This document shows positions 9,125 through 52,841 of a DNA stretch of 64,000 nucleotides, in pieces. Below the pieces are notes generated by a model, which saw only the letters and a program-made list of their open reading frames with translations, ran no database searches and was not told the DNA's origin. The DNA comes from Dictyobacter arantiisoli (GTDB lineage Bacteria > Chloroflexota > Ktedonobacteria > Ktedonobacterales > Ktedonobacteraceae), in NCBI RefSeq assembly GCF_008326305.1, contig NZ_BIXY01000017.1, forward strand, positions 1 through 64,000. Direction: 5' to 3'. The translations under genes and the position numbers were made by a program. Each line of letters starts with the position of its first letter. Position 1 is the first letter of the stretch.

Positions 9125-9505
9125 ATGCCAACCATTACACTTCAGGACGCCTCGCTACAGGGTCAGCAACAATCACCCTGGCAGATGGATATATTCGAGG
9201 AACAGAGCACGCTGCGCGAAATTCTGCGGAGCCGGATCTATCAAGAAGTGAGCGAATATAACGCGCAAAAACGTAGCCAGTCGCTCTGTCTGATCACTCT
9301 CATGCCTGTTGACCCCCCACAGGCTGATGCGGCCCCACCTGTAGACTGGCAAACCCATTATGAACGGGCTATAGAGGCATTTAAGAAAAGACGCTATCTT
9401 GTGCTGATCAATGGGCGGCAAATGACAAAACTTGATGCGCCTGTTCACCTCACAGATCAGACGACTATCACATTTTTGAAATTAATTCCCCTTATTGGAG
9501 GATAA
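9125..9505 (+). CDS. Small beta-grasp (ThiS/ubiquitin-like) protein with C-terminal Gly-Gly
   Basis: A 126-residue acidic-to-neutral cytosolic protein of no named family that I can assign. The N-terminal half has a strand, then a helix-like STLREILRSRIYQEVSEYNA. The C-terminal half reads YLVLINGRQMTKLDAPVHLTDQTTITFLKLIPLIGG, which follows the plan of ThiS/MoaD and other beta-grasp proteins (LINGR, a hydrophobic strand, then F-hydrophobic-P-L-x-GG) and ends exactly in Gly-Gly. AGAGGAGG precedes ATG 9125. Only two bases separate its stop from the DUF4132 gene, and the GGAGG encoding the final glycines is also that gene's ribosome-binding site, so the two are tightly coupled. No E1-like activating enzyme or JAMM protease is nearby, so a conjugation or sulfur-carrier role is speculation. 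Confidence 0.75.
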   Translation: MPTITLQDASLQGQQQSPWQMDIFEEQSTLREILRSRIYQEVSEYNAQKRSQSLCLITLMPVDPPQADAAPPVDWQTHYERAIEAFKKRRYLVLINGRQMTKLDAPVHLTDQTTITFLKLIPLIGG

Positions 9506-9507
9506 CG

Positions 9508-12500
9508 ATGTCAATCAGCGAGCAAGAGCAGCGGCTGCCGATCCTGGCGCCCTTGCTCAAACGTCTCACCAGCAGCGCCCATCAGCCTCAAGCAGAGGAT
9601 GCGCAGGCCGTGTTTGCTGCCTACCGTCAGGAAATGGGAGATTTCACACAACCTTCGCACCAGGACTGGGACCATCCTGCCCTTGATCTGCTCCTGCAAG
9701 AGACAAATAACCAGTTAAAAGTGCAACTGGTGCGCGTGACCCTGCAAGAAATCGACCTGACGTTTGAAAGTGCAGACTGGGAGGATACTCCCTTCCGGCA
9801 GGCAATGCAGCTACTGAAGAGAGTGGGGAGAGAACCCCTCACGTATAGCAGTGACGACGTGCGGGGGCTGCTCCAGGATATCCTGAAGCATCTTTCTAGA
9901 GAAGGGTACAAAGGTCATCATCATGCAAATGCAACCAATGAACTTGTGTTCGATCTGCTGTTGCGCCTGGAACCGTTGCTCAGACAGCAAGAGTTTTTTG
10001 CGCGATGTCAGAAGGAATTGACCTCTTTGCATGCTCTGGCAGCACACTGGGGCGGTTATTATCCCTATCAGGAGGCCTATCGCGCTCGCATGATGCTGGG
10101 CAATCTGTTGTTTGCCGATAATCCGCCCGGTCTGGCCTCGCTTTTGCGTGCATATGGCAGAGGCGAGGGACCATCTCTGCAAGAGCAGGCCCAAATCTGT
10201 CTGGCGACCTATCATCAGGAACTGGACACCTATAATAATACCTCATCGCATCCGGTGACAGAAATGCTGCTTCAGGAGGCCTACCCACGTTTAAAGGTGC
10301 AACTTATCCAGGAGGCTTTGCAGGAGGCCTATGCCTGGTATGAGCCTTCTCAGCAGACGTCTCCCCCCTTTTTTCAGACCGTTTGCTTGTTAGATGTTCT
10401 CTGCACCTCGGATTTGCCGTATAACCATGAAGATGTGCGTGCTATCCTTGGCTCCTTGAGTCGTATTCTCCTGCTGCGTAGCAATGGGTATCACAGGGGA
10501 GGATATTATAAGTTTAAAGGGTATTACAGGGGAAGATTGGCCGAACATACGCTGTATACTCTCTTCAAAGCCGTGACTTCCCGGTTCACGTCGGCAGAAC
10601 TGCTGGCCCTGTTTGAGAAAGAAATCAGCCAGCTCTATGAAGCTGTTTCCCAATGTGGGTGGTCCGGGCCCTCCGATTGGGAAAATATGATATGGCTTGA
10701 GTTACGGCGTGCGCTTTTTCCTGGGAGCGCAGGGCCATTGCTGGATGTGTTGCAGGCTGCTCCCGCCCCATTTGAGAGTGAGCGTGAACTTCAGATGTTC
10801 CTTGCTGCCTATCATCAGGATCTGGCCTGTGGTACGCCTAAAGAGATCGAGCCTGCGGTCCTCAAGCTCCTCAAGCAGAAACTGACGCCGCAGGCAACGA
10901 TACGGCTGCTCTCTCTCCTGCTCCAGGAAGCACACAATCGCCAGACAATGCCTGATGCCTCCCAACAATCTCACCAGGATGAACAGGCACATTTGCTCTT
11001 CAGGACGCTGTGCAAAAAAACGTTGCCCTTCAGCCCAGAGGATATTCATACCATGTTGCAAGGTATGATAACGAGCACGCTCTTCACTAATGGGAACCGG
11101 CTCTGGAACGGGAACCGGCTCTGGCGCATCTCTCCTCTGCTGATCGATGTTTTTGCTTTCTACTTTGATCAGCCCGAAGTGGTTGAGACCTGTTATCCTG
11201 ATCTGGAAGCCATCCGCAAGCTGTTTGAAGCAGTGGAACATCCCATTGGCGACGCCGCTCATGTTCGTCGATTTCGGCTGACGTTGCAGAGCCTGCTTTT
11301 GAAGCGCGACTACCCGTTCGACTCTCCACTCCTTCCTGACGCGTGGGCGCTGCCGATTCTCGCGGAACTCAAGGCCCTCTCGACCGAGGTGCGTGATCAC
11401 TGGCTGGCGCTTTTACACCACTGTGTACGAGCCACCTCTGTCGCTCCTACCGCTCACTGGCAACAGGAGGCGCAAGGTCTGGTTGCGGCCCTGGATAGCG
11501 CTACCTTCACCAACACCCTCTATCGCTGGATCAGCTTCTTCACGCACACAAAAGGGGAACGCATGGATGGGAACAACTCGGATATTCTGCGTGGACTCCT
11601 CTGGCTCTCCATCGGGAGTAGTGACCGCGCTCAGGCCGCGCTGCTGGCCGATGTGGCAATCGAAGGCTATCACAAAATGCCAGGAGTGGGACCACGCTGC
11701 CCCAAGGCGGGGGATGCGGCGGTCATCAGCCTGGAAGGGATGCGAGGGCGGGATGCTATCGCGCAGCTAGAACGCGTCCGCCGGGCGGTCAAACAGGCTT
11801 CCTATCAGCAAAGAATCGGGAAAGCGCTTGACGCCGTGGCGCAACGCGAACAGATGACGCGCCTGGATCTGGAAGAGTTAATGATCCCCACATTCGAGCT
11901 TGAAGATGCCCAACTCCACATCGCGGTGGAGAACTGGAACGCCCATCTCACGGTGAGCGGGAGAGGAGTGCAACAGCGCTGGTTGGACCCCGCAGGAGAG
12001 CCGCAAAAGAACCTGCCAGCGGCGATGAAGCGCACCGCAAAAGAGCAACTGACGGCCCTGACCCGGCTAGTCAAGGATATCGAGCACCTGGTGACCGATC
12101 AGCGCACTCGCTTGGAGCGCCTGTTTCTCCATGAGCGGCACTGGACCCTGCAAGACTGGCGTGAGCGCTACCTGGAGCATCCCCTGCTCAGTGTGCTGGC
12201 CCGTCATCTGATCTGGCAGGTCAGCAACGGCTCACAGAGCTGGCAGATGATCTGGTATCAAGGAGCGCTGGTTGATCCTGACACGCAGCCGGTGGCGCTC
12301 CCAGAGGAGGCGCTGGTCTCGCTCTGGCACCCCCTGATGAGTACGCGCGAGGAGGTTCAGCGCTGGTGCGTCTGGCTGGAAACGCAGCGCATCACGCAAC
12401 CATTCAAGCAGGCGCACCGCGAAATCTACCCGCTCACGGATGCGGAACGGGTCAGCGGCGATCACTCACGACGTTTTGCTGGACACTACATTCGTCAACA

Positions 12501-13245
12501 TCAACTCAATGCCCTGGCGCGGGCGCGTGGCTGGACCTTTTCCTTGCACAGCAGCTTTCAAGGGTCCATCAGCGGTGATCCGGTGAGGCTAGACCTGCCG
12601 CATCTGAGTATACGAGCAGAATTTGAGGTCAACATGGCGGAGGAGGAGTTTGAGATCCCTCGCTACCTCATCACCTCGCAGGTCCGTTTTGGGCGGCTGG
12701 GGACGGGAAACCCCTATGGCTATGGCATGCAACGCCAGCCGCTGGAACAGGTGCCACCGCTGGTCTTTTCCGAGGTGATGCGCGACATTGATCTGTTTGT
12801 CAGCGTGACCAGCCTGGGGGCTGACCCCAATGGCTACAACGGCGCTGAAGAGGGAGCGCTGCAAGACTACTGGCGGCTCTACAATCAAGACGAACTCTCG
12901 CTCTCCGCGCAGGGAAGGAAACAGATTCTGGAGCGGCTGGTCCCAATGCTGGAGATGGGGGAACGCTGTACTTTTGAGGAGCGGTATCTCCGTGTCCGAG
13001 GGCATCTCTGTACCTATCGTATTCATCTGGGATCGGGCAACATTATGATGGAGCCAGGGGATCAATACCTCTGCATTGTGTATGATACAAAGGTACGCGA
13101 GGCGACCGCGGGTCAGTTCTTCCTGCCCTTTGAGGGGGATATGCTCCTGGCGCTCATTCTTTCCAAAGCCCTGCTGCTGGCAGACGATACACATATCAAG
13201 GATAAATCCATTCTCAGTCAGATTCATTCCAGGCGACGGAACTGA
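9508..13245 (+). CDS. Large DUF4132 domain protein with three N-terminal repeats
   Basis: A 1245-residue soluble protein. The C-terminal half (from about residue 640) carries DUF4132 features: AIEGYHKMPGVGPRCPKAGD, RGRDAIAQLERVRRAVKQ, a DLEELMIPTFELE segment and a conserved RRFAGHYIRQHQLNALARARGW near residue 1000. DUF4132 is also found in E. coli YehI/MolR-type proteins; its biochemical role is not known. The N-terminal half has three tandem alpha-helical repeats of about 200 residues, starting near residues 38, 234 and 434 with AYRQEM, TYHQEL and AYHQDL and each containing an LLLQE-type helix and a later (D/E)D(V/I)RxxL helix. No catalytic motif, signal peptide or membrane segment was seen. 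Translation is coupled to the Gly-Gly protein upstream. Confidence 0.82.
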   Translation: MSISEQEQRLPILAPLLKRLTSSAHQPQAEDAQAVFAAYRQEMGDFTQPSHQDWDHPALDLLLQETNNQLKVQLVRVTLQEIDLTFESADWEDTPFRQAMQLLKRVGREPLTYSSDDVRGLLQDILKHLSREGYKGHHHANATNELVFDLLLRLEPLLRQQEFFARCQKELTSLHALAAHWGGYYPYQEAYRARMMLGNLLFADNPPGLASLLRAYGRGEGPSLQEQAQICLATYHQELDTYNNTSSHPVTEMLLQEAYPRLKVQLIQEALQEAYAWYEPSQQTSPPFFQTVCLLDVLCTSDLPYNHEDVRAILGSLSRILLLRSNGYHRGGYYKFKGYYRGRLAEHTLYTLFKAVTSRFTSAELLALFEKEISQLYEAVSQCGWSGPSDWENMIWLELRRALFPGSAGPLLDVLQAAPAPFESERELQMFLAAYHQDLACGTPKEIEPAVLKLLKQKLTPQATIRLLSLLLQEAHNRQTMPDASQQSHQDEQAHLLFRTLCKKTLPFSPEDIHTMLQGMITSTLFTNGNRLWNGNRLWRISPLLIDVFAFYFDQPEVVETCYPDLEAIRKLFEAVEHPIGDAAHVRRFRLTLQSLLLKRDYPFDSPLLPDAWALPILAELKALSTEVRDHWLALLHHCVRATSVAPTAHWQQEAQGLVAALDSATFTNTLYRWISFFTHTKGERMDGNNSDILRGLLWLSIGSSDRAQAALLADVAIEGYHKMPGVGPRCPKAGDAAVISLEGMRGRDAIAQLERVRRAVKQASYQQRIGKALDAVAQREQMTRLDLEELMIPTFELEDAQLHIAVENWNAHLTVSGRGVQQRWLDPAGEPQKNLPAAMKRTAKEQLTALTRLVKDIEHLVTDQRTRLERLFLHERHWTLQDWRERYLEHPLLSVLARHLIWQVSNGSQSWQMIWYQGALVDPDTQPVALPEEALVSLWHPLMSTREEVQRWCVWLETQRITQPFKQAHREIYPLTDAERVSGDHSRRFAGHYIRQHQLNALARARGWTFSLHSSFQGSISGDPVRLDLPHLSIRAEFEVNMAEEEFEIPRYLITSQVRFGRLGTGNPYGYGMQRQPLEQVPPLVFSEVMRDIDLFVSVTSLGADPNGYNGAEEGALQDYWRLYNQDELSLSAQGRKQILERLVPMLEMGERCTFEERYLRVRGHLCTYRIHLGSGNIMMEPGDQYLCIVYDTKVREATAGQFFLPFEGDMLLALILSKALLLADDTHIKDKSILSQIHSRRRN

Positions 13246-29618: not shown

Positions 29619-32600
29619 CTAGCGAACTTGTCGCAGACGTGCCTGTAACTGTTGCGCTAGTTGGCTGACATGCGGTTGTTGCAGCATAGTATAGTGATTA
29701 CCATCTATCTGATGGACGGTAAGTTTTTCTTGCGTTAGCGTTTTCCAGTGACGTAATTGAGCTTCCTTTTGCTCTGGCTGGCAGTCTGTCGCCTGGAAAA
29801 GTGTGATAGGTCGCGGGTATATGGACGGCGTGTAATCACAGGCTGCTCTTACGTGACTTTTATACCGTTGTATCAAACGCCATAGATAGTCAGTAGGCAT
29901 ATCAGCGGGCAAGATTTCTGTTTGTTGCATGTAGTTGAGAAGAGTATGCCTCTGTTGCTGTGGCTCTAGCTGCCGAAATGTCTCAATCGATAGTGACAGG
30001 GGCGCGGAGGAAAGTTGCTGGATGTCTTGAAGAAATTGCCACGTTAAAATTGTGTCATCCATGCCGTCTTTCTCATTCATTATTGTGGTGTCACTATCGA
30101 GAAGTGCAAGTAGCGATACTTCGTATCCTTGTTTATACAGCTGTTGAGCCATTTCATACGCGATAATACCGCCTGATGACCAGCCACCAAGGTTATATGG
30201 ACCTTCTTTTTGTATTTTTTGTAGGTGTTTGATATACAACTGAGCCATCTGTTCAATCGTGAGTTGTGCCTGTGCCTCCCCATCATCTTCTGCTTCGGCT
30301 GACTGTAGCGCAAAAACTGGCTGTTCACTATCAATATGTTGTGCAAGTTGTAGATAGCAAGAGATCATACCGCCTGCAGGATGGATGAGAAAAATGGGTC
30401 TATGCTGGCCCTGTACCTGTAACGGAACAATAGGTGTATGGCTAGTTGCCAGCATTGACTGATCGCGCAAGAGAACGGCAAGGCGCTCAATGGTTGGATA
30501 CTGGAAGATAGCCGATACAGGTATTGTTTTCTGATATCTCTGCTGAAGCTTTGCGACCAGGCGCACTGCTAGTAATGAATGTCCACCTGCTTCAAAGAAA
30601 TTCGTTGTAATACTACCAATACGATGACCAAGTACCTCTTCCCACAATCGTAGTAGCTGTAGTTCTAATGTGTCGCGTGGTGGCGTTGTATCAAACGACT
30701 CTATAGCCTGCTCGAACTCTAGCTGTGCTAATGCCTGTCGATCAACTTTACCTGAGGCTGTACGAGGTATAGCATCAAGGAAAATAAACGCTGAGGGCAC
30801 CATGTAGTCAGGGAGTTTTGTCTTTAGAAACTGACGTAACTCTTCGCCGGTTATCGTTGCGTTTTGATGCGTCAGTATATAGGCCCATAAGGTCTGCTGG
30901 TGCTCTTGTAAAAGAGCATCTTGAACAGCGGTATGTTGGCGTAATGTCGCCTCAATTTCGCCTAGTTCGATGCGGAATCCTCGTATCTTAACCTGTTGAT
31001 CATTACGACTCACATATTCAAGATTACCATCTGGGAGATAGCGAGCAAAATCGCCTGTTTTGTATAAACGTTCCCCTGGCAGTGAACTGAAGGGATGCGG
31101 AATGAAAGACGCAGCGGTAAGGTCACTACGATTTGCATAGCCTCGTGCTAATCCTATACCGCCAATATAGAGTTCAGCTGTGACCCCTAACGGTACTGGT
31201 TGTAGTTGCTTATCCAGTAGATAAGCCTGAGTATTTGCTATTGGTTGGCCAATAGGAACGATATGCATCTTTCGATAATCAAATTTCGACGAATGTTGAT
31301 AGAGCGTAGACGTGATAGTTGCCTCAGTTAAACCGTAAGCATTGATCAGCGAGATGCGTTTTTCGGCATAGCGTTGCCAGCGTATAAAGTGGGTTATTGT
31401 TGCACGGTCACTGCCTATAATGACTGTACGGAGATATGGGAAATCTGCCAGAGCATAGAGTTCACATACCTCGGTCCATTCTTGCCAGAGAGGGGTTGGA
31501 AGGTTGAGTACAGTTAACATCTCTCTTTGAATGAATTGAAGCAACGCGTGAATAGATTTTGTTTCCTGATAGGGCCATAAGACGATCGTTGCGCCACTAT
31601 ACCAGGAGGGGAAAAGCTCTTCACCCATGACATCAAAGGTCGTAGATGCAAATTGTAAAATGCGATCTTCACATTGTAGTTGATACGCGTGCGCTGTAAC
31701 GAGGCAATGATTGACAAGCCCTTGATGAGATATAAGTACTCCTTTAGGTTTGCCTGTTGTCCCGGAAGTATAGATGATATAAGCCAGATTCTGACTGCTA
31801 CAGAGACGATTTTCAAGATCTGTGTCGTTCTCCTGACGAATATTTTCCCAGGCTCTATCCAGATAGAGAAGCGTTTGTGTATTGTTGCCAGGGAGACGCT
31901 TATGCAAATGGCTTTGTGTCAGTATCACGCTGATTTGAGCATCCTCAATAATAAACGCGCATCGTTCTAGTGGCATGTTGGTATCGAGAGGGACATATGC
32001 TCCACCAGCCTTTAATACAGCAAGAATACTCACCATCATTTCTAATGAGCGATTCAGCAAGATTCCGACACGTACCTCTGGTCCAACGCCAATTTTACGG
32101 AGATACCTGGCTAGCTGGTTTGCGCGAACGTTTAATTGTTGATAAGTGAGGTTCATTCCCTCAAATGTAACTGCGAGATTGTTTGGAGTACGCGATACCT
32201 GTTTTTCAAAGAGTGTTTGCAGATATATGTCTTCCGCTAGCGGTTTGGGAGTTGTATTCCATTTTTCTAATTGTAGTTGTCGCTCCTTATCCAGAAGTAA
32301 ATGTGTTTGTAAATACCTACCAGAAGGGTTTGAAGCGAGTTCTATGAGTACGCGCTGATAGTATTCGCGGAGCATATCAACCTGCTCGGCTGCGAGTTGT
32401 GTCATATCGCAATGGATCGCCAGTTGGATTTGTGAAGTGAATGGATCCTGGCGAAACGCTACGGACAACGTAAAGTTCGTCTCTTCGTAAAATTTCCAAT
32501 CAAGGAGTTTAATCTCTTCTACCTTTTCTAAGTTTTGTATGACGTGAAAGTGATTAAAGTCAAAAAATGTTTCAAAAAGTTCTTTTTTATTCTGCTGTAT

Positions 32601-46298: not shown

Positions 46299-49200
46299 TT
46301 AGCGCCGTTGAGAGCGTCGCTGTGCCACATCGCGCATGTGTTGGTGTTGTCTTTGTAGGGCTTGTTTCTGACGTTCACCTCGCTCAATGGTTTGATTGGT
46401 ATGTATAGGTGTTTCCTGATTTAAGTACTTTGCTAGTGAACTGATCGTTGTATGTTTGAACATTTCAATTAAAGGAATGTCCCGTTTGAGCAATTTCTGA
46501 ATTTTGTCGTGTACCTCCACCATACTGAGTGAATGACCGCCAAGATCGAAGAAGTTATCATTAATACCGATACGGTCGATTTGGAGCACATCACGCCAGA
46601 TGGAAACGAGCATACGTTCAAATTCGTTTCTTGGTGATACGTATATCGATGTTTCAGCCTGATCCTGGTGCTTCGGGTTGGGGAGCCGATGTCTGTCGAT
46701 CTTACCATTTGACAATAACGGAAGCTGGTCAAGCACAATAAATGCAGCAGGCATCATATACTCTGGCAGGTACGTGCGTAGAAGGTTGCGTAGTTCGTTC
46801 GTGTGTATGGTATAGCCTGGTGTTGAAATGACATAGGCAATGAGACGTTTGTCCTCCTGATAGTTTTGAACAACGACAACGGTTTGTTTGATCGAAGGGT
46901 GTTTTAATAAGAGCGCCTCAATCTCGCCGGTTTCAATACGCATACCTCGAATTTTTACCTGATAATCGAGGCGTCCAAGATATTCAATCTCCCCTGTAGC
47001 ATGATATCGTGCCAGATCGCCGGTGCGGTAAAGGCGCTCTCCAGGTGTGAGGCTGAATGGATGAGGAATATATTTCTCAGCCGTGAGTGTAACAGTATTT
47101 TGCACATCCTTGGCTGCTGATATCTCGTTGGCACGTTGCTTAAGTGTCGCCAGATGCTCAAGGCCAGCAAGCGTATTATCAACATCAATACCAAAGTCAA
47201 CCAGGCAAGCGATCTCATCGACACCACTTTGTTGTAGCTGATGGACCAGCGGTAGGCAGGAGTTCACCGTCCCAAAGAGGCCACTGGTATTGAAGTACCG
47301 TTCAAATGCGTGGTCAAGTAAAAGCTCAAGGTGTTGTGCCGTAAAATCCTTTGAGTCCATATCGAGGTCCATACTACGAGCGAGGTTTCGCGTGAGATCG
47401 GCAGAGGATTTAAGATAATTGCGAAATGGTTGATGTACAATCTGACGAACTTTCGCGGTATCATCGCCTACAAAGGTGTGCAGCATGAGTGTCACATGTC
47501 CAGACCCTGAATGCCCACTATTTTGCCAGGCTTCACGATACACGGTAATTTTTTCCGCCAGATCTTTTGGTGTTTGCCCTAGAAGATGGGTTAATACAGA
47601 GGCGCCAATTTCGCCAGCTAAGCGAAATGTCTCTGGATTAAAAGCGGCAGTGATCCATATTGGTAATTCGGGTTGAATCGGTTTTGGATAGATAGATATA
47701 TTTACCTCTTTGCCTATACCGTTTGGTATCATGAGAGATTCGCCACGCCAGAGTTTGCGCACTGTCTCAATACTCTGCATCATAATCTCTTTGCGTTCTT
47801 TATAGGACTGGGGAGCCAGGACAAAATCATCTGCATGCCAGCCTGAGGCAAAGGAAATACCAACTCTGCCATGTGATAGATTATCGATGACAGCCCACTC
47901 TTCCGCTATATTGACAGGATTGTGGAGTGGTAGTACAACGCTTCCCGCTCGTAATTGAATAGTGTTTGTGATAGTTGAGAGTGCCGCATTGGTAATAGAC
48001 GGACTTGGGTAAATTCCTCCGAATTCATGAAAATGCCGCTCAGGTGTCCAGACGGCGGCAAAGCCATGCTGATCTGCAAATTTAGCGCCCTCAATGAGGA
48101 GACGATACTTATCGGCACTATTTTCATTATCGCTTGCGAAGTAGAATAGGCTGAATGCCAGTTCTTTATGAACCTTTTCCGGGGCGGGTTGTTTGTTTTT
48201 GGATAATTGTCGAGTTAACTGCGTTGTATTCAGGTAGCCGCGTGTCAAATTTGCGCCACCCACGAAGATTTCTCCCGCTACGCCAACTGGTACTGGTTGG
48301 AACTGACGATCCAGGATATAGATTTGTGTATTGGTGATCGGTTTCCCAATTGGGACCGCTGTAGAATCTGCACTTGATCGTATCTTCTGGTCGCTGACAT
48401 CTGCAGTTACCTCTGAAGAACCATAGAGATTAATCAGGGTTGCATAGGGTAACCGAGTGACGAAACGCTGAATGAGCTCATGAGGTAGAGCTTCTCCGCT
48501 GGAGAACCAGAGTTTCAAATGTTGTAGCAGTTGAGGAAGATTTTCCTCATTATTGAGCAGTGCTCGAAGCAGTGATGGGACCAGAGTAATGCGCGTGACG
48601 CCTGTATCGAGCAGAGCATGCATGAATACAGAAGGAGATTTTACGATCTCATCTGAAAGAATAACAGTTGGAATTCCTTGCAGCAGTGGACCAAGCATTT
48701 CCCAAAGAGAATCGACGAATCCCAATGATGTCTTTTGGCAACAAACCTCATGCTTTTCGAATGGGTAAGCATTCCACATCCAGTTGAAACGGTTATAAAG
48801 ATTGCGATGCAATCCAACCACTCCTTTAGGTGTTCCTGTTGAACCTGAGGTATAGATGACAAATGCTGCATTGTCTACTGTGACTGAACTGTTACTATTG
48901 TTCGTGCTATTTTGAGCAATAACAGGCCAATCGCTGTCCAGGCATACGCAAGAGAGAGATAGACGTGTAGTGGATAAGCTTGTTTGTAGTTGCTGTGTTG
49001 TGATAACCACCTCGACATGGGCATCCTGAAGGATAAAGTGTAGGCGGTCCTGAGGATACGATGGTTCAATAGGGAGATAGGCACCACCAGCTTTTAAGAT
49101 GCCCAATAGGGCTATGAAAGCTTCAAAAGATCTTTCAAGATATACGGCAACGATGCTTTCAGGCCCAATACCCAGAGATTGTAGATGTCCTGCGAGTTGG

Positions 49201-52200
49201 TTGGCGCGTTGATTGAGTTGCTCATAATTGAGCGTCTGGCTAAGATTGTGTAATGCGGGAGCAGTAGGAGTGCGTTGTACCTGTTGCTCAAAGATATGTT
49301 GAATGCAGCAACTTGTAGCGTTCTCGTGATACGTATCATTCCATTCGTGGAGTAATTGTCTCTGTTCGTGTGTATTAAGTAGTGGCAAGAGACTAACATG
49401 CTGCATAGGATTGTCTATGATACCTTGAAGCAGTGTCTGGAAGTGTCGCAACATACGTTCTATCGTATTGTCATTGAAAAGGTCCGTATTATAGCGTAGA
49501 GCAATCCCAAGACCATCATTTGTTTCGGCAGCCGTGAGCGTCAAGTCGAATTGAGCGGTTAATTGAGGAATCGCAAGGGTAGTTGCCTTGATAGTGCCAA
49601 TCGTGACCGGAACCTCGTCCTGTCCTAGTGCCAGCGAAGTAAGTCCCTCAGTATCAGGAAATGGCGATTGCTGAAAGACAAACATGACCTGGAAAAGGGG
49701 TGATCGACTGGGATTGTGATCAACCTGAAGCCGCTCTGTAAGCGTTGGAAATGCTGCATTCTGATGCTCAAGTGAGTCAAGCACCGTCTGCCTGACTTGA
49801 GCCAGGAACGTGCTGAATGATGGATCGTCCCCCAAATGGGCTCGAAGTACCAGAGGGTTTGTGAAATAGCCAACAATATCATGGACATCAGCAGTCATTC
49901 TACCAGTTACAGGTGAACCAACAAGGATATCAGTTTGTCCTGTATAGCGATGAAGGTAGACTTGAAAAGCAGCCAGAAGTGTCATATAGAGCGTTGTGTT
50001 GTGTTCGTACCCGAGATGTTTGATTTGTTGTGTTAGTTTTTTTCCAAGGGAAACACGCTGTTCGTTGCCGTGATAAGTTTGTGTTGGTGGGCGTGACCGA
50101 TCGGTTGGTATGTCGAGAGTGGGAAGATCCCCGGCGAGTCGTTGTTGCCAATAGTGCCATAACTCTGTATCAGGATTTGCAAGTTCCTGATTGTACCTGT
50201 AGACATAATCAACATAGCGTAGTGGCAGAGGGGGGAGTGATATGTCTTTGTCCTCGGCGGTTGCTGTATATAACAGTCCTAATTCATGAAGTAATAGAGA
50301 GAGGGACCAGAAGTCCGAGAGAATATGATGTGTAACGAATGCGATTGCGTATTGTTGGTGAGCACGTTTGAAGAGCCGAACACGTAAAATCGTATTGTGT
50401 TCAAGATTGAATGGTTGATGAATGATCGCGTGAAGTTGCTGTTGAAAAAGCTCAGCACTCCACTGATCAGCATCTATAACCTGAAAATCTGGATCAAACT
50501 GCTCATGGATCTGTTGCACTGGTTCGCCATTTACTGTATTGAATGTCGTCCGTAGTGCTTCATGACGTTGTGTGAGTAATTGCATCGCAGTTTTGAATGC
50601 GGAAATATCAAGATGAGATTGGACGTTTAGCACGCCTGAGATATGGTAAGCGGCGCTATCAGGTGCTAGACGATATAAGAACCATAAAGCTTTTTGCCCT
50701 GCTGATAAGGGATAATCTGTGCCTTTAATCGGAGCTTGCTGGTTGTGGGTTGCTTGAATTGGTAGAGGGTGGGGCGTAGTTGTTAGGAGCTCTTGTAGTT
50801 GTTCGGCTAACTGAGAGATACCGGGACTCTGTAGCAGAGTAGTTAGAGCAACAGCGATACCCAGGTGTTTTTCAATTGCATATTGTAGTTCTACTGCTTG
50901 TAAGGAGTCCATTCCTAGCGAAATAAAAGATTGATTTTCGTCTATTTTTTCCTGTGGCAGTGAGAGACTACTGGCAATGAGTCGATGGAGGAGAGTTTTA
51001 AGCAGCGTGACACGATTTTCAAGAGTAGAAGAGCGTAGCATATCCTGAATAATAGATATATCTTCATTCATAGGCTGCGATAAAGCAACATCTTGAGTAG
51101 GGAGCGTATCACTGGCGATACTTTTGAAGTCCTGTGTGAGGAAGCGCGATCGACAGGCGAAGCGTTGAATTTTGCCGCTTGACGTTTTCGGTATGCTACC
51201 GGGTAAAGTAAGGACAATTGTATCAATGGATAGATCATGATTTTCCATGACAGCCTGGCGGATAGCGTGAAAGATGGGCTCAGGGTCAGCATTACGATGT
51301 TTGCGGTCCAACTCATGTATAAGGATAAGATGTTCGCCCGCTTCATGTTCTACGGAGAAAGCGGCTGCGCCATTCGCCAGCAGTGCAGGGTGGCTATGCG
51401 TGGCCGTTAATTCTATATCTTGTGGATAGTGGTTACGGCCATTAATAATAATTACATCTTTGAGACGACCAGTAATAAAAAGCTCCTCATTATAGAGAAA
51501 GCCAAGATCCCCAGTTCTCAGGAATGGGCCCTCTTGTGTATCGGTGATGAATGCATCAAAGGTCTGGCGTGTTTCCTCGGCTTTTTGCCAGTAGCCCTTT
51601 GCCACACCTGCGCCTGAGATCCAAATTTCCCCAATGCCATCATCGAGGCAGCGTGTACAACTATCTGGTTTGATGATGGCGATCTGATAGTTAGACGAAC
51701 ATTTTCCACAGCTCACGAGTGACTGACCACTAGCTTCCCCGCTTGTTACACATTTCACCTGATTCTGCTCTAGAGCAGTGCGCTCAAAATATTGTGGTGT
51801 TACAGGTGTAGTTGGATTTCCTCCAGTGACAAAAAGCGTTGCTTCAGCTAGACCATAACAAGGATAGAATGCCTCAGGTCTGAAGCCGCACGTTTTGAAA
51901 GCCTCTGCAAAACGCCGTAATGTATCATTGCGAATGGGCTCAGCACCGTTGAATGCAATACGCCAGGTACTCAAATCCAATGTTGCTTTCTGGTCTTCGG
52001 TCACTTTGCGTATGCACAGATCGTAAGCAAAGTCAGGACCACCACTAGATGTTGCATGGTAGCGAGAAATTGCCTGAAGCCAGCGTACTGGTTTCTGCAT
52101 GAAAGAGTAAGGAGACATCAGAATCACGGGAAAATCGGCATATAAAGGTTGCAAAATACCTCCTATTAACCCCATGTCATGATAAGGAGGCAACCAGATA

Positions 52201-52841
52201 ACGCCAATGCTTGTTGTGGTATGCTCAAAACGTTGTTGAATCGTGGCGAGATTGTGTAGTAAGTTCTTATGGCTTATCATTACGCCTTTTGGAGATGCTG
52301 TAGACCCGGAGGTATATTGAAGGAAAGCCAGCGTATTCCCATCTAGTTCAGGCTCAATCCAATCCTCATCATGTGGCGAGTTCTCCCCATCGGTTGTAAT
52401 CACCTCAATGTTGGAAGAAGATATTTCGTGTGCAAAATAATGATTGATAGTTGTGACCAGAGGAGTTGTAGTGAGTATGAGCTGAACTTCAGCGTCTGCC
52501 ATAATTGCCTTGAGGCGAGGTGTTGAACGGTGAGATTGTGGCGGGTATGCTGGTACTGCGATAACACCAGCGTAGAGGCAGCCAAAATATGCGCTAATAT
52601 ATTCCAATCCTGGTGGATAGAGCAATAAAGCCCGTTTCCCTACATTTTTGGGAGTTTGCAATTGCCTGGCAATTGAACGTGCCTGGCAATCCAGTTCTTT
52701 GTAAGTGAGATGCCGCTCCTCTGTTTCTCCGTCAACTAAAAATGTGTATATGCGGTGGTCTGCATAATAGTTGGCGCGCCAACGCAGTAAATCAACCAGG
52801 GTTGAAAATTGTGTAGACTGTTGTTGGTCCTGTTTGTTCAT
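46299..52841 (-). CDS. FAAL-ACP-C-A(luciferase-like monooxygenase insert)-T synthetase
   Basis: A 2180-residue starter enzyme. Residues 1-600 form a fatty acyl-AMP ligase (VIAVPAYPPQ, TSGSTASPKGV); an ACP follows (GMDSLQAVEL, near 645), then a C domain (THHILSDFWS, near 839), then an A domain with YTSGSTGTPKGV near 1330. Between core motifs A6 (GEIFVGGANLTRGYL) and A7 (YRTGDLARY) lies an insertion of about 350 residues (about 1550-1900). It is a MupA/Atu3671-type FMN-dependent luciferase-like monooxygenase, with AAVWTPERHFHEFGG and LRAGSVVLPLHNPV. The T domain (LGGHSL) is near 2099, with a basic RQKQALQRQ tail. The A code reads VDWTFSLADK, close to beta-alanine codes (VDxVxSxADK). It should start the chain: fatty acid, then a beta-amino acid that is oxygenated in place. 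Confidence 0.93.
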   Translation of the reverse strand: MNKQDQQQSTQFSTLVDLLRWRANYYADHRIYTFLVDGETEERHLTYKELDCQARSIARQLQTPKNVGKRALLLYPPGLEYISAYFGCLYAGVIAVPAYPPQSHRSTPRLKAIMADAEVQLILTTTPLVTTINHYFAHEISSSNIEVITTDGENSPHDEDWIEPELDGNTLAFLQYTSGSTASPKGVMISHKNLLHNLATIQQRFEHTTTSIGVIWLPPYHDMGLIGGILQPLYADFPVILMSPYSFMQKPVRWLQAISRYHATSSGGPDFAYDLCIRKVTEDQKATLDLSTWRIAFNGAEPIRNDTLRRFAEAFKTCGFRPEAFYPCYGLAEATLFVTGGNPTTPVTPQYFERTALEQNQVKCVTSGEASGQSLVSCGKCSSNYQIAIIKPDSCTRCLDDGIGEIWISGAGVAKGYWQKAEETRQTFDAFITDTQEGPFLRTGDLGFLYNEELFITGRLKDVIIINGRNHYPQDIELTATHSHPALLANGAAAFSVEHEAGEHLILIHELDRKHRNADPEPIFHAIRQAVMENHDLSIDTIVLTLPGSIPKTSSGKIQRFACRSRFLTQDFKSIASDTLPTQDVALSQPMNEDISIIQDMLRSSTLENRVTLLKTLLHRLIASSLSLPQEKIDENQSFISLGMDSLQAVELQYAIEKHLGIAVALTTLLQSPGISQLAEQLQELLTTTPHPLPIQATHNQQAPIKGTDYPLSAGQKALWFLYRLAPDSAAYHISGVLNVQSHLDISAFKTAMQLLTQRHEALRTTFNTVNGEPVQQIHEQFDPDFQVIDADQWSAELFQQQLHAIIHQPFNLEHNTILRVRLFKRAHQQYAIAFVTHHILSDFWSLSLLLHELGLLYTATAEDKDISLPPLPLRYVDYVYRYNQELANPDTELWHYWQQRLAGDLPTLDIPTDRSRPPTQTYHGNEQRVSLGKKLTQQIKHLGYEHNTTLYMTLLAAFQVYLHRYTGQTDILVGSPVTGRMTADVHDIVGYFTNPLVLRAHLGDDPSFSTFLAQVRQTVLDSLEHQNAAFPTLTERLQVDHNPSRSPLFQVMFVFQQSPFPDTEGLTSLALGQDEVPVTIGTIKATTLAIPQLTAQFDLTLTAAETNDGLGIALRYNTDLFNDNTIERMLRHFQTLLQGIIDNPMQHVSLLPLLNTHEQRQLLHEWNDTYHENATSCCIQHIFEQQVQRTPTAPALHNLSQTLNYEQLNQRANQLAGHLQSLGIGPESIVAVYLERSFEAFIALLGILKAGGAYLPIEPSYPQDRLHFILQDAHVEVVITTQQLQTSLSTTRLSLSCVCLDSDWPVIAQNSTNNSNSSVTVDNAAFVIYTSGSTGTPKGVVGLHRNLYNRFNWMWNAYPFEKHEVCCQKTSLGFVDSLWEMLGPLLQGIPTVILSDEIVKSPSVFMHALLDTGVTRITLVPSLLRALLNNEENLPQLLQHLKLWFSSGEALPHELIQRFVTRLPYATLINLYGSSEVTADVSDQKIRSSADSTAVPIGKPITNTQIYILDRQFQPVPVGVAGEIFVGGANLTRGYLNTTQLTRQLSKNKQPAPEKVHKELAFSLFYFASDNENSADKYRLLIEGAKFADQHGFAAVWTPERHFHEFGGIYPSPSITNAALSTITNTIQLRAGSVVLPLHNPVNIAEEWAVIDNLSHGRVGISFASGWHADDFVLAPQSYKERKEIMMQSIETVRKLWRGESLMIPNGIGKEVNISIYPKPIQPELPIWITAAFNPETFRLAGEIGASVLTHLLGQTPKDLAEKITVYREAWQNSGHSGSGHVTLMLHTFVGDDTAKVRQIVHQPFRNYLKSSADLTRNLARSMDLDMDSKDFTAQHLELLLDHAFERYFNTSGLFGTVNSCLPLVHQLQQSGVDEIACLVDFGIDVDNTLAGLEHLATLKQRANEISAAKDVQNTVTLTAEKYIPHPFSLTPGERLYRTGDLARYHATGEIEYLGRLDYQVKIRGMRIETGEIEALLLKHPSIKQTVVVVQNYQEDKRLIAYVISTPGYTIHTNELRNLLRTYLPEYMMPAAFIVLDQLPLLSNGKIDRHRLPNPKHQDQAETSIYVSPRNEFERMLVSIWRDVLQIDRIGINDNFFDLGGHSLSMVEVHDKIQKLLKRDIPLIEMFKHTTISSLAKYLNQETPIHTNQTIERGERQKQALQRQHQHMRDVAQRRSQRR

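Follow-up and report, generated by a model that had tools for sequence, protein, structure and literature searches.

A widespread operon of a Gly-Gly-ending ubiquitin-like protein and a DUF4132-DUF7737 partner, with a probable role in DNA damage or stress

Why should a small bacterial protein end exactly in two glycines, directly before the gene for a very large neighbor, and what might the two proteins do together? The question is raised by a locus in the first 64,000 nucleotides (nt) of contig NZ_BIXY01000017.1 of Dictyobacter arantiisoli (assembly GCF_008326305.1), a stretch referred to here as the window. A 126-residue open reading frame (ORF) terminates there in ITFLKLIPLIGG (LKLIPLIGG), followed by the stop codon TAA, and the ORF of a 1245-residue DUF4132 protein starts 2 nt past that stop; these details, first reported in an annotation made from the sequence alone (the first-pass annotation), were all reproduced exactly in the ORF translations. 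As described below, the pair represents a real, widespread, and so far undescribed operon of a ubiquitin-like protein (Ubl) and its partner, with a probable role in DNA damage or stress.

Results

Genome-contig searches yielded 131 matches, 80 of which were kept, and further Chloroflexota and plasmid copies were added; the search patterns for the small gene contained a KLVPL stretch and did not include Gly-Gly. After deduplication, 122 loci with the small gene remained: 107 partnered loci (in 5 of which the partner is incomplete or disrupted) and 15 orphans. In the examples tested, the gene downstream of the small gene encodes DUF4132 and then DUF7737, and this arrangement was found in at least seven phyla (Chloroflexota, Actinomycetota, Deinococcota, Planctomycetota, Cyanobacteriota, Pseudomonadota, and Bacteroidota). 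Hosts include Streptomyces, Micromonosporaceae, Stackebrandtia, Phycisphaerae and other planctomycetes, one cyanobacterium, Deinococcus, Bacteroides, Anaerolineales, Ktedonobacter, and, among proteobacteria, Novosphingobium and an uncultured organism. By this sampling of sequences, the pair is widespread among soil and extremophile bacteria.

The Gly-Gly terminus is exact in 99 of the 107 unique partnered loci. Other tails, which the first-pass annotation had foreseen as counterevidence, do exist, as a minority. In 5/107 loci, one or two residues follow Gly-Gly (in the inspected examples, the stop of the small gene overlaps the partner start), and two partnered copies have lost it (L026, with tail PLASQPICLWIKLTD, and L198 from Bacteroides, with tail SGRLW). 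In the third and last partnered locus without it (L035, genome G004), Ubl and DUF4132 share one frame through PLIGDKLMNESEA (...IGDKLMNESEA), which we take for a GD fusion. If one base in a run of G were different, this ORF would be split into two genes, so that it would be either a recent fusion or an assembly or sequencing error. None of the 15 orphans, which have no DUF4132 gene nearby, ends in Gly-Gly; since they fall into few clades, they stand for a handful of independent losses rather than 15.

Could the glycine codons be conserved for another reason? In the window, they fall in a purine-rich stretch at ribosome-binding distance from the partner gene, and GGAGGA or GGAGGG at that distance recurs in many Ktedonobacter copies. 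The caution voiced in the first-pass annotation, that the codons double as the ribosome-binding site of the next gene, therefore holds for the window, but most homologues lack this coincidence. Among the 90 exact-Gly-Gly loci in which the distance could be measured, the glycine codons lie ≤4 nt from the partner start in 55 (mostly as GGTGGC), too near to serve as its ribosome-binding site, 5 to 13 nt away in 33, and >40 nt away in 2. That annotation had also asked whether the tail persists where the downstream gene is not adjacent: it does so in two loci with a gap of 75 to 80 nt and in one with reversed gene order (L033, GGCGGT). Furthermore, 15 of the 16 possible codon pairs encode Gly-Gly in the 99 exact loci. 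Distances and codon-pair counts thus refute a ribosome-binding-site artefact as a general explanation; together with the long gaps and the reversed locus, they support, at the level of sequence comparison, selection of Gly-Gly in the protein itself. The doubt is answered for the family, not for the window alone. The glycines close a longer conserved block, F-[LF]-[KR]-L-[VTI]-P-L-V-G-G.

The proposed beta-grasp (ThiS/MoaD/ubiquitin) plan of the small protein was borne out by structure prediction and structure search alike. An AlphaFold2 model based on the window protein and 55 homologues (predicted local distance difference test score [pLDDT], 76) shows its elements in beta-grasp order, with a helical insert, while residues 123 to 126 are disordered (pLDDT, <50). 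When Foldseek candidates were aligned with VIA-align, MOCS2A/MoaD ranked first (Z, 8.1; root mean square deviation, 3.3; 80 aligned), followed by Urm1, mycobacterial MoaD, SAMP1, and ubiquitin; the listed matches belong to one fold class (beta-grasp/Ubl-type), with middling Z scores. Foldseek by itself gave a weak signal (best Ubls at E values of about 0.01 to 0.07, with some non-Ubl entries mixed in). Presumably, the protein has neither the fold nor the tail of Pup. A Pfam scan returned nothing at E ≤ 10, no match was found in Pfam, NCBIfam, PHROGs, or PADLOC, including PF02597 (ThiS) and its NCBIfam equivalent, and a sequence search found no relative of solved structure. Homology to ThiS/MoaD by profile-profile comparison was considered and set aside, its signal being too weak for proof. 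Given consistent structural matches and a weak profile link, a MoaD/Urm1-like fold is well supported as a prediction, whereas membership in PF02597 is not.

In the partner, Pfam recognizes DUF4132 at residues 830 to 1009 (E = 1e-47; 162 bits versus a cut-off of 27 for PF13569) and DUF7737, which the first-pass annotation had missed, at residues 1135 to 1239 (E = 2e-38). An AlphaFold2 model of residues 410 to 1245 (pLDDT, 86) has a helical half similar to CAND1 and karyopherins (HEAT/ARM scaffolds; Z of about 9), and matches to this model, searched as a whole, were confined to that half. Counting by hand and by position in 400 Chloroflexota genomes, we found a Ubl accompanying DUF7737 in about 24 loci; DUF7737 matches without one were short, at contig edges, or in broken reading frames, and DUF4132 loci without DUF7737 (G317 three times, G041) had no Ubl. 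In plasmid records, Deinococcus, Novosphingobium, Bacteroides, and one Nonomuraea locus have both Ubl and DUF7737; exceptions are an Acetobacter locus (L194) and a second Nonomuraea locus (L204), where DUF7737 has no adjoining Ubl. Family co-occurrence hence supports the earlier claim of functional coupling and narrows it to a subtype: it is DUF7737, not DUF4132, that marks Ubl partners in these genomes.

The DUF4132-DUF7737 region of partners of Gly-Gly-type Ubls has 21 fully invariant columns, including C1189, which is present in 99/99 readable partners. Both partners of Gly-Gly-less Ubls have replaced it (C to P in L026, C to A in L198), and L194, the DUF7737 protein for which no Ubl was found, has F instead; no other invariant column is altered in all three. 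A Fisher test of Gly-Gly against Cys gives a P value of about 6e-4 (99/0/1/2), with kinship ignored. Since this link was sought after the alignment had been seen, we regard it as suggestive of a tail that tracks C1189 of the partner.

Regulatory sequences point to a stress context. The motif T[GT]GTC[AG]GTG-N7-9-TANNNT lies 30 to 49 nt before the gene in 37/40 Streptomyces loci and in four relatives (Streptantibioticus, Streptomonospora, and 2/3 Hamadaea loci), compared with 0.012 expected and a background of 3 matches per 2.4 million positions, the Streptomyces count being phylogenetically redundant; a looser form occurs in 56/66 actinobacterial loci. The Streptomyces promoter of the pair, TTGTCAGTG, and its actinobacterial counterparts match the consensus of RecA-independent damage promoters, tTGTCRgtg-8 nt-TannnT (PMC5656591), a type bound by PafBC (PMC8223512). 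This makes PafBC a candidate regulator of the Streptomyces pairs; in Streptomyces venezuelae, an initial search found the mycobacterial PafBC motif not to be conserved (PMC9380542). The motif is absent from non-actinobacterial loci, the window included, and outside Actinomycetota the SOS box GAACN4GTTC is not enriched (8 with one mismatch allowed, versus 4.05 expected). In Deinococcus, the radiation/desiccation response motif (RDRM) is found upstream in 3/4 loci; the remaining loci outside Actinomycetota have neither motif. Promoters of the pair thus look DNA damage inducible in Streptomyces and Deinococcus, in the latter also by published experiments.

Those experiments concern DR_A0165 (SEP068184) and DR_A0166, the Deinococcus radiodurans pair. 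DR_A0165 matches our family hidden Markov model (E = 8e-18; Z 3000), ends in ALAGG, and is followed 2 nt later by its partner, a DUF4132+DUF7737 protein with a DUF5724 arm. The operon is a DdrO target that is derepressed upon DdrO depletion, and mitomycin C raises DRA0166-V5 in an IrrE-dependent manner (PMC8533742). The DR_A0165 product, predicted to be MoaD-like, is reported to bind thioredoxin Trx1, and its phenotype concerns catalase and redox (PMC9650054). The latter study states that no RDRM is present upstream of DR_A0165; contrary to this and in agreement with PMC8533742, we located one 82 nt before its ATG (L193:1552-1571). The first-pass assertion that no such system had been described stands insofar as neither paper links Ubl, Gly-Gly, and partner, but the D. 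radiodurans genes had each been studied singly.

Separately, we noted a palindrome, TGTGAC-N7-TGTCACA (or its core), about 75 to 150 nt upstream of Chloroflexia Ubl genes, whether paired (L063, L067, L254, and L255) or orphan (L071-L077, L257, L258, and L260-L262), 15 times versus 1.0 expected. The Chloroflexia orphans (L071-L077 and L256-L262), Ubl relatives without Gly-Gly or a nearby DUF4132 gene, have tails such as RLYQR or ...DAA.

The layout of the window locus is given in Table 1. As stated in the first-pass annotation, no E1-like or protease gene is nearby: a search for E1- and JAB-like proteins within the window found none. Elsewhere in the same genome, ThiF is encoded on C18 and C103 (with a weak match on C54), MoaD/ThiS at three sites, and JAB at two. 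Inspection of gene lists, without a statistical test, showed no further gene shared by the loci inspected. Nothing similar to the pair was seen in phage DNA, and viral contigs contained no relatives when searched with the family alignment and a single 20-residue match when searched with the Bacteroides query.

Table 1. Features of the Ubl-partner locus in the window
Feature	Position	Strand	Basis or remark
Small ubiquitin-like protein (predicted MoaD/Urm1-like beta-grasp), 126 aa, C-terminal Gly-Gly	9125..9505	+	AlphaFold2 model, VIA-align
Gly125-Gly126 codons GGA GGA, final two residues	9497..9502	+	ORF translation
Partner, 1245 aa: N-terminal alpha-helical (HEAT/ARM-like) arm, DUF4132, DUF7737	9508..13245	+	Pfam, AlphaFold2
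DUF4132 (PF13569) coding part	11995..12534	+	Pfam
DUF7737 (PF24879) coding part, domain marking Ubl-partnered DUF4132 proteins	12910..13224	+	Pfam
C1189 codon (YLCIV motif)	13072..13074	+	Invariant in partners of Gly-Gly Ubls; replaced for two Gly-Gly-less Ubls

The same genome contains a second, paralogous pair (G000:C28:36865-37242; L012/L021) with an intact ORF for the large partner and, in the small gene, an in-frame TAG at the position of Trp75 of the window copy (D-stop-QTHY versus DWQTHY). On a Bacteroides finegoldii plasmid (L198:3130-10887), the pair lies between the genes of a rhomboid protease and of a GAF-domain protein. Further along the window, positions 29619 to 59992 hold a big nonribosomal peptide synthetase (NRPS)/polyketide synthase gene cluster that occupies both strands; one of its NRPS proteins (46299 to 52841) contains a luciferase-like monooxygenase domain.

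Discussion

What, then, might the pair do? From the pairing and tail conservation seen across these loci, the predicted fold, and the promoters, we infer a stress module, a reading to which we assign a probability of roughly 40%. The small protein would be a MoaD/Urm1-like Ubl with a flexible Leu-Val-Gly-Gly tail as its working end, and the DUF4132-DUF7737 protein would be its dedicated partner. A conserved site in the C-terminal domain of the partner, with C1189 as one of its residues, would receive the tail and probably react with it; entry of the tail into this domain seems to us the most economical reading. Its terminal glycine would be activated in trans by a general E1 of the MoeB/ThiF type, the helical arm of the partner may bind substrates, and DNA damage would induce the operon in Streptomyces and Deinococcus. 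An E1 encoded elsewhere is no argument against this, since TtuB of Thermus and the archaeal SAMPs likewise rely on an E1 that also serves other Ubls.

Several observations weigh against this module. Across the surveyed loci, phmmer searches with ThiF and JAB queries from the same genome gave one match (L021), which came with a rhodanese-bearing ThiF query and was taken as its rhodanese part; no association with E2 or sulfurtransferase genes was found either, with E1 and JAB the only families searched for. The Bacteroides pair is maintained without Gly-Gly, and hhalign comparison of the Ubl with same-clade ThiS/MoaD is weak (P = 2.8e-4; probability, 18%). The link between tail and Cys rests on two losses, one of them (L026) perhaps a decaying copy, and, by a column-based estimate, three independent cases would have one column in common with a chance of about 0.04. 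The window promoter has neither the PafBC motif nor the RDRM. Finally, deletion of DR_A0165 is reported to raise H2O2 resistance, which is unexpected under a simple repair role, and the D. radiodurans pull-downs, made with tags at the N terminus as well as at the C terminus, were read as binding; neither ubiquitin nor covalent linkage is mentioned in the text of that study (PMC9650054).

Much of this would also suit a Ubl that is never activated and acts as a permanent regulatory or structural subunit, its tail fitting a narrow DUF7737 pocket as the MoaD tail does in MoaE. The absence of E1 and JAB genes from the surveyed loci, the appearance of a self-standing two-gene unit, conservation of the entire terminal block beyond Gly-Gly, tolerance of tails extended by one or two residues, the G004 copy that reads as a fusion, and published data that report binding only are all in keeping with it. 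On the other hand, Gly-Gly is strict at the last two positions (-1 and -2), whereas residues -3 to -10 mostly vary somewhat, and the apparent co-loss of Gly-Gly and Cys hints at chemistry. We take such a non-covalent role as a serious possibility, albeit one that we do not favor.

A bolder version of the stress module, which we consider rather unlikely, is a damage-response transfer system, in which a shared E1 would charge the Ubl and the invariant Cys of DUF7737, a new catalytic domain, would take it over as a thioester or acyl adduct; targets held by the helical arm would then receive it. If true, DUF7737-DUF4132 would constitute an E2/E3-like enzyme with no relation to those already known.

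More doubtful still is a sulfur carrier, with the Ubl thiocarboxylated like MoaD, ThiS, or CysO and the partner acting as a synthase that makes a thiolated product in DNA damage or redox stress. MoaD is the nearest fold, the tail PL[VI]GG resembles same-clade MoaD/CysO tails (PP(M/V)GGG and PAMAGG), and the D. radiodurans phenotype touches catalase, redox, and thioredoxin binding. Yet sulfur-metabolism genes were not seen to recur in the inspected loci, and the whole-model fold search (residues 410 to 1245, the C-terminal half not being tested alone) gave no MoaE-like synthase match. In view of the distances, gaps, gene order, and codon pairs reported above, it is scarcely credible that conservation of the Gly-Gly codons merely reflects the need for a GGAGG ribosome-binding site in front of the partner gene.

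With the stress module as the preferred reading, two hypothetical or DUF entries from many genomes of Streptomyces, Micromonosporaceae, Deinococcus, and others become one testable unit: a MoaD/ubiquitin-like protein whose Gly-Gly tail is under selection and whose partner is always of the DUF7737 subtype, together with a candidate Cys for the active site and a putative DNA damage promoter. It also provides a structural frame for the published, unexplained data on DR_A0165 and DR_A0166.

How does the pair compare with known systems? Like ThiS, MoaD, CysO, Urm1, SAMP, and TtuB, the Ubl has a predicted beta-grasp fold, a disordered Gly-Gly tail, and a Pro-x-x-Gly-Gly-like ending; unlike them, it is larger (about 126 to 155 aa), carries an extra helical insert, lacks a PF02597 match, and is tied to a DUF4132-DUF7737 protein without an E1 or JAB neighbor. 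The DUF4132 domain is shared with the Escherichia coli-type proteins (MolR/YehI), of which the Sinorhizobium and Iodobacter examples have neither DUF7737 nor a Ubl. Those two genes sit among AAA-DUF5682-vWA-SWIM genes, with a WGR domain present in the Sinorhizobium protein, and no MoxR AAA, DUF5682, vWA, or SWIM genes were noticed in the inspected gene lists of Ubl loci, where no family search was made; MolR/YehI is not among the entries of Kaur 2020 (PMC7159879). DR_A0165/DR_A0166 is a homologous pair with a Gly-Gly tail, 2-nt gap, DUF4132+DUF7737 partner, and MoaD-like prediction, in whose literature the genes are handled separately, the small protein is called Deinococcus specific, and Gly-Gly goes unmentioned in the text searched (PMC9650054, PMC8533742). 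Finally, bacterial Ubl conjugation operons (Iyer 2006, PMC1779556; the E1-E2 operons of cyclic oligonucleotide-based antiphage signaling systems [CBASS]; Bil) and Pup likewise place a small Ubl beside a large protein, but the pair described here has no E1 or JAB gene in its locus, and a Ubl-DUF4132 pairing was not encountered in the parts of the Iyer survey consulted. The pair bears on the part that bacterial Ubl tails may play in damage responses beyond Pup and the known E1-E2 operons.

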